A stretch of DNA of 31,357 nt from a virus. Positions 26,315-30,247 of the stretch are shown piece after piece. The stretch spans positions 1 through 31,357 of the IMG/VR virus record IMGVR_UViG_3300047457_000408. One strand, written 5' to 3'. Made by a program: the position numbers and the translations under genes. Position 1 is the stretch's first letter, and each line of letters opens with the position of its first letter. The notes beneath the pieces are model-generated. The model worked only from the letters and a program-made list of their open reading frames with translations. It searched no databases and was not told the DNA's origin.

Positions 26315-26425
26315 GCTACAAATTTTATTCGCAAATAATCTATTCTGTAAAATTGTGGATAACTTTTATAAAAATAATTTAACAAAAACTATTGCAAGTA
26401 TAGAAAACTATATTACATTTGCAGT
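26315..26425. promoter_or_regulatory. divergent promoter region between the late block and the replication block
   Basis: Plus strand: TTG (26392-26394) and TACATTTG (26414-26421), followed by 4 nt and ATG 26426. Minus strand: AAAATTTG (26326 down to 26319), followed by 4 nt and the GTG of the HNH gene at 26314; its -33 element is not clear. AT-rich DNA between the two could carry an operator, but no convincing inverted repeat is visible. Confidence 0.6.
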
Positions 26426-26644: not shown

Positions 26645-26676
26645 TTTGGAAATTTAAAATCTTTGTTTTATAATTG
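26645..26676 (+). promoter_or_regulatory. promoter for the structured RNA
   Basis: TTTG (26645-26648) and TATAATTG (26669-26676, one mismatch to TAnnTTTG), spaced 23 nt between element starts. Transcription would start at about 26681, at the first bases of the structured RNA. Confidence 0.55.
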
Positions 26677-26680
26677 CATA

Positions 26681-26812
26681 TCGGAACAACACGACTGAAC
26701 CCCGTGCCGAAAATACAGAGCAATGAACAATCACCTAATTAACACCCACGCAAGTAAAAGGTCGGCTGACTCTGGGCCGGGTTCAACCTTTGAAAGTGTG
26801 GGTGTTTTTTTT
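26681..26812 (+). ncRNA. pseudoknotted structured RNA ending in a terminator
   Basis: The predicted transcript folds into: P1, CGG/CCG (682-684 with 707-709) plus CACG/CGTG (690-693 with 703-706), loop ACTGAACCC; a 31-nt A-rich linker; P2, AACACCCACGC (741-751) with GTGTGGGTGTT (796-806), 11 bp; an internal loop AGTA/GAA (753-756 and 792-794) of sarcin-ricin type; P3, AAAGGT/ACCTTT (757-762 with 786-791); P4, CGGC/GCCG (763-766 with 776-779). TGAACC of the P1 loop (696-701) is complementary to GGTTCA (780-785), giving a pseudoknot. P2 and the following T8 (805-812) form a terminator. It may be a small RNA or an attenuator or riboswitch-like leader for the gene at 26813. Confidence 0.7.
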
Positions 26813-27025: not shown

Positions 27026-27221
27026 AAGAACCGTATTTATTGACAAAACAGACCCATTGAAAGAACTTACACCAGCACGTTCAGGTGATAACAAGTTTTT
27101 TGCTTTGATATTTTATGATAAAAATAAGAACCAAAGTTTTGTCATTGAACTTGAAAAATCTGCTGCCATAGAATTTTTGGCAGAATGTGAAGTCAGAATC
27201 AAAAAACTTGACGATGAGTAA
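27018..27221 (+). CDS. small hypothetical protein, 67 aa
   Basis: Beta-hairpin followed by a helix: MPKRTVFIDKTDPLKEL, then KFFALIFYDKNKNQSFVIEL and EKSAAIEFLAECEVRIKKLD. Compact and soluble, perhaps a small DNA- or protein-binding unit. Overlaps the previous gene by 8 nt and the replisome organiser by 8 nt, so it belongs to the replication operon. No family assigned. Confidence 0.6.
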   Translation: MPKRTVFIDKTDPLKELTPARSGDNKFFALIFYDKNKNQSFVIELEKSAAIEFLAECEVRIKKLDDE

Positions 27222-27873
27222 CGGCTGGATTAAGATACACAGGAAGTTTATAGAATGGCAATGGTTTGGCAACTCGGAAGCCGTGCATTTATTCATTTAT
27301 ATTCTTTTGAAGGCAAACCACGCTGACAAAATGTGGCAAGGTCACGAAGTAAAACGTGGTCAGCTCATTACTTCAATAGGTCATTTGTCAATAGCCACGG
27401 GCATTTCACAGCGTTCAGTTAGAACATTGCTAAAAAAGTTTCAAAACACAGGCGAAATTGAAATAAAAACGACAAACAAATTTACCCTTGTAAGTGTCTG
27501 TAAATATGAATGTTACCAAATTGCTGACGATGAAAGTGACAAACAAAACGTCACTCAAACGACAATTAAACGACAAACAAGTGACAAACAAGTGACAACA
27601 AACAAGAATGTAAAGAATGATAAGAATGAAAAGAATGTAGAAATATATAGGCAAATTTTGCATTTGGAAATCACAAGGGCAGAAGTTGACAAGCTAATTG
27701 CTGATGGCTATACCATTGACCAAATTGATGACATTCTGGACAGGGCAGAAAATTGGAAAGGCATTGCAAACAAAAGGTCACTATACCTTACCGCAAAAAA
27801 TTGGCTATCTGCTGACATAAAGAAAATCACAGCAGAAGTTTACCGCACACCAAAAGAAAACTTTTTAACATGA
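27214..27873 (+). CDS. replisome organiser / replication initiator with a helix-turn-helix
   Basis: 219 aa. N-terminal MSNGWIKIHRKFIEWQWFGN, then HLFIYILLKANH and HLSIATGISQRSVRTLLKKF (winged-helix DNA recognition, about 70-89) match the phage replisome-organiser family. A Lys/Asn/Gln-rich linker (about 110-145) follows and is encoded by DNA with repeated GTGACAAACAA units. The C-terminal half (ITRAEVDKLIADGYTIDQID, then NKRSLYLTAKNWLS) is helical and may load the helicase encoded immediately downstream. The ATG at 27214 is chosen (8-nt overlap with the preceding gene). The final codons overlap the helicase gene by ATGA. Confidence 0.8.
   Translation: MSNGWIKIHRKFIEWQWFGNSEAVHLFIYILLKANHADKMWQGHEVKRGQLITSIGHLSIATGISQRSVRTLLKKFQNTGEIEIKTTNKFTLVSVCKYECYQIADDESDKQNVTQTTIKRQTSDKQVTTNKNVKNDKNEKNVEIYRQILHLEITRAEVDKLIADGYTIDQIDDILDRAENWKGIANKRSLYLTAKNWLSADIKKITAEVYRTPKENFLT
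27536..27650 (+). repeat. iterons and A-rich 9-nt repeats: candidate replication origin
   Basis: GTGACAAACAA occurs at 27536-27546 and 27581-27591, with close copies CGACAAACAA (27571-27580) and GTGACAACAAAC (27592-27603); the last three are 10-11 bp apart. Directly downstream AAGAATG recurs at 27604, 27613, 27622 and 27631 (9-nt period), followed by AAATATATAG. Iterons next to an A-rich unwinding region inside the initiator gene is the layout of the lambda O origin. Confidence 0.6.
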
Positions 27874-29105
27874 TAGAGCAACAAATTCTCGGAACGTGGT
27901 TGCAAGGTAAGCAACTTGACCTTACCGCAATCGTACGCAGCGAATGGTTTACTGAACCAAAATACAGAACACTATGTCTGACCATTCAGGCAATGTACAT
28001 CAATAACGAACACATAGACAATGTGGCGGTGGTAATGAAACACCGTGACATGGCAATGGACATCGCAGGGTTAAACAACCATTACACAGGTGAAAGCATT
28101 ACCCGGTTTGTGGCAATGTTGCATCAGGAATATATCCGTAAAACCTTGACCATTGACTTGACAAAAATTGTCAATGACCTGACCAAAGGTAGCGACATAA
28201 TGGAAAGCATTTCGGGAGTGCAGAAAAGCATTGATGAAATACAACTAAATGAAAACGGCCAAGCCATTGACCTTGTGAAGTTGCTGGGTGACCGCTTCGA
28301 CAACTTGGAAAAGCGGAGCAAGGCCGAAATCAAAACAATCGGACTGCCCACCGGGTTCACCAAATTGGACAAGTACATCGGGGGGTTTGTTCCCGGTGAA
28401 AATGTGGTTGTGGCTGGTCGGCCCGGAATGGGTAAGACAGCATTCGCAGTCAGCATCGGAATTGCCCATGCAAAGCTTGGTGGAAGGGTTGTCATGTTCA
28501 GCATGGAAATGAGCAAAGAACAACTCGCCGACCGCATACTTTCATCCCTTGGCCGGGTGGACAATTTGAAAGTCCGAAATGCTGATGTCAATGAATTTGA
28601 GTTGGAAAACATTGCCCGTGAATTACTGCTCATTGACTACAAATTTGAGATAGAAGACAGCACCATGCTCGACATTGCCCAAATTAAAACCCGAATTAAG
28701 ACAATGAAAGTAAAGCCCACGCTGGTCATCATTGACTACATGCAGTTGGTTAAAAGCACAGGCGGTAAAAATCGAGAGCAAGAAATAGCCAACATCAGTA
28801 GGCAATGCAAACTGATAGCCAAAGAGTGCGGATGTACCGTAATGCCATTATCACAACTTAACAGGGGAACAGAGGAAGGCAACAGCCGCCCAAAATTGGC
28901 AAACCTTCGGGAAAGCGGAGCAATAGAACAGGATGCAGACACGGTGTTATTCCCTTACCGCCCTGATTATTACGAAGCCCAAAAGTCCGGGGGCAACCCA
29001 CCTGAACTTGAAGATGCTGAACTTATCATAAGCAAGTGTCGGAATGGGATGACCGGAACATTGCAATGCAATTTTATGGGAAAAACAGTTGAATACATTT
29101 TTTAA
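27870..29105 (+). CDS. DnaB-like replicative helicase
   Basis: 411 aa, RecA-fold helicase of the DnaB family, predicted to unwind DNA at the fork. Walker A GRPGMGKT (183-190), H1a FSMEMSKEQL (210-219), Walker B VIIDYMQL (286-293), H3 MPLSQLNR (325-332), and LRESGAIEQDAD (346-357). The N-terminal collar (1-130) is short, beginning MIEQQILGTWLQGKQLDLTA. It starts in an ATGA overlap with the replisome organiser, the expected loader partner. Its stop is 27 nt before the next promoter-driven gene. Confidence 0.95.
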   Translation: MIEQQILGTWLQGKQLDLTAIVRSEWFTEPKYRTLCLTIQAMYINNEHIDNVAVVMKHRDMAMDIAGLNNHYTGESITRFVAMLHQEYIRKTLTIDLTKIVNDLTKGSDIMESISGVQKSIDEIQLNENGQAIDLVKLLGDRFDNLEKRSKAEIKTIGLPTGFTKLDKYIGGFVPGENVVVAGRPGMGKTAFAVSIGIAHAKLGGRVVMFSMEMSKEQLADRILSSLGRVDNLKVRNADVNEFELENIARELLLIDYKFEIEDSTMLDIAQIKTRIKTMKVKPTLVIIDYMQLVKSTGGKNREQEIANISRQCKLIAKECGCTVMPLSQLNRGTEEGNSRPKLANLRESGAIEQDADTVLFPYRPDYYEAQKSGGNPPELEDAELIISKCRNGMTGTLQCNFMGKTVEYIF

Positions 29106-29132: not shown

Positions 29133-29795
29133 ATGAATTATCAAGTTAAGTCAATAGATTATAACGATTGTAAAGAGTGGTTTTTGAAAAAGCATTATGC
29201 TAAAAGAATACCAATGGTACAATTTGCATTTGGATTGTTTGATGGAGATTCTATTGTTGGAGTGTGTAGTTATGGAACTACATTAGCGATAGATATAAGA
29301 AAGCGATTTGATTATAATGTATATGAATTAAATAGATTAGTTGTAAATGATGGTTTGCCAAAAAATGCCTTATCATTTTTTGTTGGTCAAACTATACAAA
29401 TGATGCCCAAACCTTGTGTGTTATTATCTTATGCCGATAGGAGTAAAGGACATCATGGTTATATTTACCAAGCAACTAATTGGATTTATACTGGATTGTC
29501 TGCAATAGTCAAAGAATATAAGGTTAGGGGCGAAGAAGACATGCATAGTCAAACACTATTTGATAAAAGTAAAGGGAAACCAGACCGAGTTGCTTATTTA
29601 AAAGAATTATATGGTGACCGATTATATATGGATTATAGAGAAAGAAAGCATAGATATTTCTTTTTTTTAGGAAATAAATATCATAAAAAACAAATGAAAA
29701 ATCAATTACCATATACAATAGAATCCTATCCAAAAGGAGAAAATAAAAGATATGATGCGTCTTATAAACCATTAACACAAATCAAATTATTATGA
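29133..29795 (+). CDS. Mom-like DNA modification protein (GNAT-like)
   Basis: 220 aa. ELNRLVVNDGLPKNALSFFV (65-84) and LLSYADRSKGHHGYIYQATN (97-116), followed by WIYTG, resemble phage Mom-type proteins, which modify adenine in DNA and protect it from restriction, and have a GNAT-related fold. N-terminal WFLKKHYAKRIPMVQFAFGL with VGVCSYG fits as well. The gene is clearly more AT-rich than the helicase gene before it, suggesting a separate origin. The chemistry cannot be predicted. The stop overlaps the next gene (ATGA). Confidence 0.7.
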   Translation: MNYQVKSIDYNDCKEWFLKKHYAKRIPMVQFAFGLFDGDSIVGVCSYGTTLAIDIRKRFDYNVYELNRLVVNDGLPKNALSFFVGQTIQMMPKPCVLLSYADRSKGHHGYIYQATNWIYTGLSAIVKEYKVRGEEDMHSQTLFDKSKGKPDRVAYLKELYGDRLYMDYRERKHRYFFFLGNKYHKKQMKNQLPYTIESYPKGENKRYDASYKPLTQIKLL

Positions 29796-30247
29796 GAATA
29801 AAAATCAAAGCACCACAACACAACAGCAGGACAACATTTAGACGAAGCGAGATTGAACGGCTTAAAGAAGTAATCTACCACCAGTCAATCCGCATCAACG
29901 AACTTGAAAGGATGCTCAAAGTTGACCAAATGGACATGTCGGAACACTACATCAAGGCCGCACATCTTGCAATTAAATCGGTTTTCGCTGAATACCAGCC
30001 CGAATTTATCACCATTGAAACCCGGAAGCGTGATGTGGTGGAACTACGACAAATTTTTCAATGGCTTTGCCGCAATAAGACTACTTTATCGTTGCAGAAA
30101 ATCGGGCAAATATGCGGTGGCCGTGACCATTCCACGATTATAAATTCGTGCAGGGTGGTGGATAACCTGATGCTGTATGACAAAAGGTTTGCCCGGAACC
30201 TTGAAACCGTGAAAAACAAGTTTGAAAATTTTGCAGAACAGATATGA
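29792..30247 (+). CDS. DnaA domain-IV-like protein
   Basis: 151 aa. The C-terminal part contains ETRKRDVVELRQIFQWLCRN (76-95), LSLQKIGQICGGRDHSTIIN (99-118) and SCRVVDNL, the signature of the DNA-binding domain IV of DnaA, which reads DnaA boxes with the GRDHST motif. No AAA+ ATPase domain is present; instead a basic, coiled N-terminus (RSEIERLKEVIYHQSIRINE). It may bind phage or host DnaA boxes, as an accessory or competitor in initiation. Base composition matches the replication genes, not the AT-rich genes on each side. ATGA overlaps at both ends. Confidence 0.85.
   Translation: MRIKIKAPQHNSRTTFRRSEIERLKEVIYHQSIRINELERMLKVDQMDMSEHYIKAAHLAIKSVFAEYQPEFITIETRKRDVVELRQIFQWLCRNKTTLSLQKIGQICGGRDHSTIINSCRVVDNLMLYDKRFARNLETVKNKFENFAEQI

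Follow-up and report, generated by a model that had tools for sequence, protein, structure and literature searches.

The initiator gene in the viral DNA analysed here, a stretch of 31,357 nucleotides referred to as the window, carries within its linker codons a set of 11-bp iterons and an adjoining 9-bp array, both of which are kept as DNA and are not a by-product of the protein. The array is nearly invariant and recurs in otherwise unrelated phages. Collectively, the results suggest that this region is likely an intragenic iteron replication origin with an adjoining conserved array. Origin activity, binding, melting and helicase loading are inferred, and there are no experimental data. The initial annotation had proposed a lambda-like origin within the replisome organiser gene; this was supported for the layout but not for the type of iteron.

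Iterons and array in the initiator linker

About six degenerate 11-bp units were found within the initiator gene at 27536-27602 (Table 1), where they encode linker residues of about 108-130. Their core spacings are 12, 11, 11, 11 and 11, and TRF independently gave a period of 11 with 5.4 copies over 27546-27603. The three or four iterons initially annotated, with the last three 10-11 bp apart, were thus an undercount, as the register also includes ACGACAATTAA (27559) and a degenerate unit, ACGTCACTCAA (27548). The 11-bp repeats translate in differing frames (SDKQ / RQTS / SDKQ / VTTN). Since 11 is not a multiple of three and both frames and peptides differ, an amino-acid repeat cannot account for the iterons.

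Table 1. Features of the proposed origin and its initiator gene in the window
Feature	Position	Strand	Remarks
Iteron 1 GTGACAAACAA	27536..27546	+	12 bp before next register
Iteron 2, degenerate ACGTCACTCAA	27548..27558	+	in 11-bp register
Iteron 3 ACGACAATTAA	27559..27569	+	in 11-bp register
Iteron 4 ACGACAAACAA	27570..27580	+	in 11-bp register; TRF
Iteron 5 GTGACAAACAA	27581..27591	+	in 11-bp register; TRF
Iteron 6 GTGACAACAAA	27592..27602	+	lag-11 match stops 5 bp before array
9-bp array AAGAATGTA AAGAATGAT AAGAATGAA AAGAATGTA (AAGAATGNN x4)	27604..27639	+	frozen codons; 0/57 synonymous changes
AT-rich stretch GAAATATATAGGCAAATTTTG	27640..27660	+	with array, least stable part near iterons
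Initiator (replisome organiser) gene, DnaD-like / O-like	27214..27873	+	ATG 27214; PHROG 2514 and PHROG 345 profile matches
N-terminal domain, winged-helix fold	27214..27516 (residues 1-101)	+	AlphaFold2 pLDDT mostly about 86-95; best winged-helix match Z 9.5
C-terminal domain	27643..27870 (residues 144-219; modelled 144-209)	+	swapped among relatives, junction at array; AlphaFold2 model
Phage DnaB-type replicative helicase, presumed load	27870..29105	+	Pfam DnaB_C 1.3e-74; PHROG 19 4.5e-89

Downstream of the iterons, AAGAATG occurs at 27604, 27613, 27622 and 27631, confirming the four copies at an exact 9-nt period that had been annotated, and the tract said to follow them is AAATATATAG at 27642-27651. 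This block proved to be the most conserved part of the region and not a side detail. It codes in frame for residues 131-142 (KNV KND KNE KNV), so that the DNA-level evidence for the array rests on codon choice only; this codon evidence is strong. The array is proposed, by inference, to be an unwinding or helicase-loading element. AT content is 76% across 27595-27660, on the 3' side of the iterons, and 27599-27658 belongs to the 1.4% of 60-bp segments in the window with the lowest stability. The array segment, although rich in AT, is surpassed in instability elsewhere in the window. Over the 48 nt of 27598-27645, the motif 5'-TnnT-3', two of which are required by Bacillus subtilis DnaD (PMC10201434), occurs 17 times on the bottom strand and once on the top strand, a bottom-strand count reached by 0.17% of 48-bp segments. 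This periodicity follows from the amino acids, because the codons for K, N, D and E share A as their middle base, and the codon choice is therefore not explained by TnnT.

The initiator is a protein of 219 residues, most of which (residues 2-207) is matched by PHROG 2514, a DnaD-like helicase loader family (E=8.7e-32). Other DnaD-like families also matched in the PHROG profile search, and the match to the 'O-like' PHROG 345 was weaker (2.9e-12). In tblastn the initiator matched O proteins of HK75-type phages; lambda O itself was not compared. It has 153 relatives among viral contigs. No Pfam match to PF07261 (DnaB_2/DnaD C-terminal domain) was found in the window protein, whose C-domain has no DnaD-family match, although one relative (L057) does match PF07261 (4.3e-14). 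In the AlphaFold2 model, an N-terminal winged-helix-like domain spans residues 10-101 and the linker is disordered, with pLDDT <50 at residues 105-141. The claim that the repeats encode the flexible linker of the initiator fits this model. The N-terminal domain is presumed, without binding data, to be the iteron binder, and the DnaB-type helicase gene lies directly downstream of the initiator gene.

Other elements of the window were also observed. A conserved non-coding block precedes the replication genes at 26645-26812 (+) and folds with a pseudoknot in which TGAACCC pairs with GGGTTCA; 4/6 counted pairs were changed on both sides across 16 relatives. Partial support was also obtained for a second pairing, which takes in CAGAG just before an ATG, and an 11-bp stem followed by T8 is terminator-like. 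The structure is 97% paired and its covariation exceeds 500/500 shuffles. Rfam gave no match to the block at gathering score and only a weak match to TEG147 (E=0.012). It is possibly a new regulatory RNA or an attenuator of the replication operon. The window also encodes a phage protein in which DnaA domain IV occurs on its own (29792-30244, +; Bac_DnaA_C 6.2e-17), conceivably a regulator using host DnaA boxes, and a Rad52/Rad22-family annealing protein (494-955, +; 8.7e-18) that might drive module exchange at the initiator linker.

Conservation of the repeats as DNA

To separate DNA from protein-level causes, we held the protein fixed and permuted the gene's own codons among synonymous positions. 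The gene contains 21 8-mer repeat pairs compared to a shuffle mean of 1.6 (p=2e-4), and the 9-mer repeats (p=5e-5), the lag-11 matches (41/64, p=1.5e-4) and the four AAGAATG copies (p=1.5e-4) were likewise in excess, the observed repeats being equalled in only 0.005-0.02% of shuffles. Among window-type close relatives, synonymous changes were seen at 162/509 comparable codons (32%) in the N-domain and 110/297 (37%) in the C-domain, compared to 4/118 (3%) in the iteron linker and 0/57 (0%) in the array. Because some sequences occur in more than one of the pairs, the comparisons are not independent; even so, the difference is about tenfold. The proposal would have been refuted had relatives kept the amino acids and lost the nucleotide repeats. 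The opposite was found, since linker amino acids vary among these relatives although synonymous sites hardly do.

The same layout was found across the family. Linker repeats exceeded synonymous resampling (p<0.05) in 46/49 distinct, non-redundant initiators; the best repeat lag was 11 bp in 33/49, and 11, 22 or 33 in 41/49. The repeated iteron sequences themselves differ between initiators despite the common lag. In 25/49 initiators, as in the window, the downstream repeat copy stops 5 bp ahead of the array. Most of the larger distances, namely 14 and 23 (8 more initiators), equal 5 plus whole 9-bp units and reflect array units overlooked by the search motif. The iteron-to-array distance is thus usually fixed. 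When aligned on the array, the units consist of an invariant or nearly invariant AAGAAT, then G, then two variable bases. In the relatives examined, the iterons and array adjoin a helicase or helicase-loader gene.

Four types of N-domain (A-D) and three types of C-domain (1-3) are combined among the relatives. Between L017, whose N-domain is of type B, and L067 the N-domain is 99% and the iterons 100% identical, compared to 24% for the C-domain; between the window and L017 the C-domain and array are each 97% identical, compared to 36% for the N-domain and 63% for the iterons. The iterons therefore segregate with the N-domain and not with the C-domain, which is the expected outcome if, as proposed, the N-domain binds them. 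Wherever an A, B or C N-domain meets a C1, C2 or C3 C-domain, the junction lies at the array. Type D initiators (the L029 group) combine an unrelated N-domain (Pfam DUF6291, 3.6e-23) with the window's C-domain and helicase and have a different array, (AATGTW)n, which indicates that array type, too, tracks the N-domain family and neither the C-domain nor the helicase.

The array codons are frozen across phages and hosts. In codon-unbiased sets, array codons were AAG in 194/201 and AAT in 166/167 cases, compared to 240/759 (32%) and 1623/2625 (62%) for context-matched controls elsewhere in the same loci. The 36 codons just upstream, in the iteron part, show the opposite preference (AAA 119/156, AAC 162/217). 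The search for relatives was seeded partly by the peptide KNDKNEKN, so that relatives with this peptide were partly favoured by the search, but the codons of the seed were left degenerate. When viral contigs were scanned with a codon-degenerate pattern, 64 distinct matches were obtained. Nearly all of them are initiators, and AAA was the only Lys codon in the four short ORFs that matched by chance. Across 84,980 genomes of bacteria and archaea, this pattern occurred at 77 distinct places, where 20 motif-recognised initiators (L465 being excluded as a regex false positive) used AAG in 59/60 and AAT in 60/60 cases, and unrelated proteins mixed AAA, AAG, AAT and AAC. The prophage hosts were Bacillota, Bacteroidota, Desulfobacterota/Deltaproteobacteria, Chlorobi and Omnitrophota, with Phycisphaerae among further matches that were recognised as initiators by eye only. 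Host labels are provisional, as many of the genomes are MAGs, and the counts from several of the scans are samples and not censuses.

Other array types show the same behaviour. In NN-type arrays the second Asn is AAT in 183/186 and Asp is GAT in 60/62 cases, while the first Asn varies; non-initiators with this pattern have codon use near 50:50. For NVNVNVND linkers, a degenerate scan gave AAT for Asn in 379/380 and GTA/GTT for Val in 280/288 cases, compared to AAT in 462/740 outside the linkers. AATG, in a 3-nt register, is the core common to the array types. NVNVNVND linkers frozen as (AATGTW)n were seen in DUF6291-type and other initiator-like proteins (L029-L037, L280-L339), and DUF6291, listed as of unknown function, may possibly be a DNA-binding initiator domain.

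Proposed origin and alternative readings

In the proposed origin, the N-terminal winged-helix domain would bind the 11-bp-spaced iterons in its own linker sequence, roughly one per helical turn, and a nucleoprotein complex would build up along a single face of the helix. The adjoining 9-bp AAGAATGNN array and AT-rich stretch would then open, and the DnaB helicase from the neighbouring phage gene would be loaded at the opened array. Binding, melting and helicase loading are taken by analogy from established knowledge of iteron origins. Retention of AAG at positions where AAA would ease melting suggests that the array is recognised by its sequence. Which strand is read, and by which protein, is a matter of speculation, single-strand recognition as by B. 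subtilis DnaD being one possible candidate. The cumulative GC-skew minimum, suggested initially as a check, falls at 26.5-27.5 kb, near the initiator gene, and fits the proposal; it is confounded, because gene orientation switches there.

Several simpler causes of the array were rejected. Avoidance of A-tracts (AAAAAT) or of CpG (AACG) is insufficient as the source of the codon bias, since elsewhere in the same phage loci AAG for K before N is used at 32% and AAT for N before G at 62%. Selection for AT-richness alone is a poor fit, as the array keeps AAG over AAA. DnaA-trios fit only one triplet in three, and an out-of-frame internal ORF from the array ATGs meets an immediate stop in the window.

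That the repeats arise merely from the amino-acid composition of a low-complexity hydrophilic linker can be almost entirely discounted. An in-frame KN array and a predicted lack of order in the linker would fit this reading, but the frame-crossing repeats, the protein-fixed shuffles and the synonymous-site conservation all contradict it. Another possibility, which we consider improbable, is that the true origin is the divergent intergenic region at 26315-26425, acting via host DnaA or the phage DnaA-domain-IV protein. This region has a perfect DnaA box (TTATCCACA, minus strand, 26354-26362) that is retained in nearly all close relatives regardless of N-domain, it includes the window's least stable 80 bp (26335-26414), and the GC-skew minimum is equally close to the box and to the initiator gene. 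However, there is only one box; it lies ~70 bp ahead of where the first early gene begins, next to a TAnnTTTG motif resembling a promoter, so that an operator is equally likely; three relatives (L007, L009 and L011) have no exact box yet keep the iterons and array; and the frozen iterons and array would be left unexplained.

The array might also be chiefly a recombination boundary, a short common sequence for exchange of N- and C-domains via annealing recombinases. All of the A/B/C x C1/C2/C3 junctions do lie at the array, and the phage encodes the Rad52-family annealing protein, but this reading, which we judge unlikely, does not by itself explain the fixed iteron distance, the variable number of frozen units, or codons frozen across phyla and in the (AATGTW)n arrays of another N-domain family. 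Recombination at the array is probably more a consequence than a cause and is compatible with an origin as a side effect. We also consider it unlikely that the repeats, as a cis element, serve gene regulation instead of replication, whether as an operator for autoregulation or as a signal in the mRNA. Intragenic operators exist, and sequence conservation alone cannot tell DNA from RNA function; however, the repeats lie >300 bp into the gene, and iterons with an AT-rich layout beside a helicase or helicase-loader gene resemble known phage origins (PMC7466680, PMC6316719).

Returning to the origin reading, a bolder version holds that the array is an undescribed origin element in phages of many hosts, a general signal for duplex opening or helicase loading and a phage counterpart of DnaA-trios. 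Its units would contain AATG in 3-nt register, with a 9-bp period for AAGAATGAN or AABAATGAT and a 6-bp period for AATGTW. They would follow phage-specific iterons at a defined distance and be written into the linker via codon choice. The present evidence falls a little short of favouring this version. No description of DnaD-like phage origins with such arrays was found in the literature searched, most subscription papers being outside its scope. Origins within phage initiator genes have been known case by case, and here the layout was resolved by comparison alone. Phage-specific iterons obeying an 11-bp rule, together with a nearly invariant array, would provide a simple signature for origins in uncultured phages. 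The origin reading also offers a reason for initiator modules recombining exactly at the array, and it raises the question of which factor recognises AATG-type arrays in phages whose hosts span several phyla.

Relation to known origins

Origins inside initiator genes have precedents in ORF20 of the staphylococcal phage 80-alpha and gene 38 of SPP1 (PMC5499656; PMC6316719) and in the O genes of lambdoid phages (PMC7466680). The lambda origin in gene O resembles the window in having iterons in the initiator linker, an AT-rich 3' side and the gene for a helicase partner next to it. It differs in its 18-bp iterons, annotated at 20-24-bp steps; the window has 11-bp non-palindromic units and does not meet the 18-bp criterion. 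In lambda the annotated iterons were seen but no AAGAATG/AATAATG array. The helicase partner also differs, as the window phage encodes its own DnaB and lambda a P-type loader.

SPP1 gp38/oriL and 80-alpha ORF20 similarly have an origin in the replisome organiser gene with direct repeats and a DUE (PMC6316719, PMC5499656). The 80-alpha origin was placed genetically in ORF20 (PMC5499656), where we detected repeats (lag 30, p=0.004), behind which lie an AAT-rich AATAATGAN block and AATAATGAT/AATAATGAA blocks. It differs from the window in this 30-bp lag and in a DnaC-type loader downstream. In orf11 of the lactococcal phage r1t, the linker again has more repeats than codon choice would give by chance; their lags are 11 and 15 bp, and there are three copies of GATAAGAAT, once more using AAG/AAT; its array period is 15 bp, its N-domain is another one, and a DnaC-like loader lies downstream. 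The rep gene of TP901-1, included as a positive control, gave no significant repeats in the same test.

At the protein level, the winged-helix N-domain is comparable to that of RepA_N plasmid initiators (pSK41 RepA, 4pt7/5kbj; Z 8.6 over 94 residues). Relatedness is not shown by this, because CRP-family domains score equally high, and a PDB sequence search with the family alignment gave nothing significant. At B. subtilis oriC, the DnaD recognition element lies opposite DnaA-trios that adjoin DnaA boxes. Both differ from the window array, which has no adjacent DnaA boxes (the nearest consensus box is 1.2 kb off) and whose 9-bp consensus is stricter than TnnT. The two systems share a triplet-register motif beside initiator sites (PMC10201434), and the DnaD recognition element, at least two TnnT on one strand, is met by the TnnT-rich bottom strand of the array.
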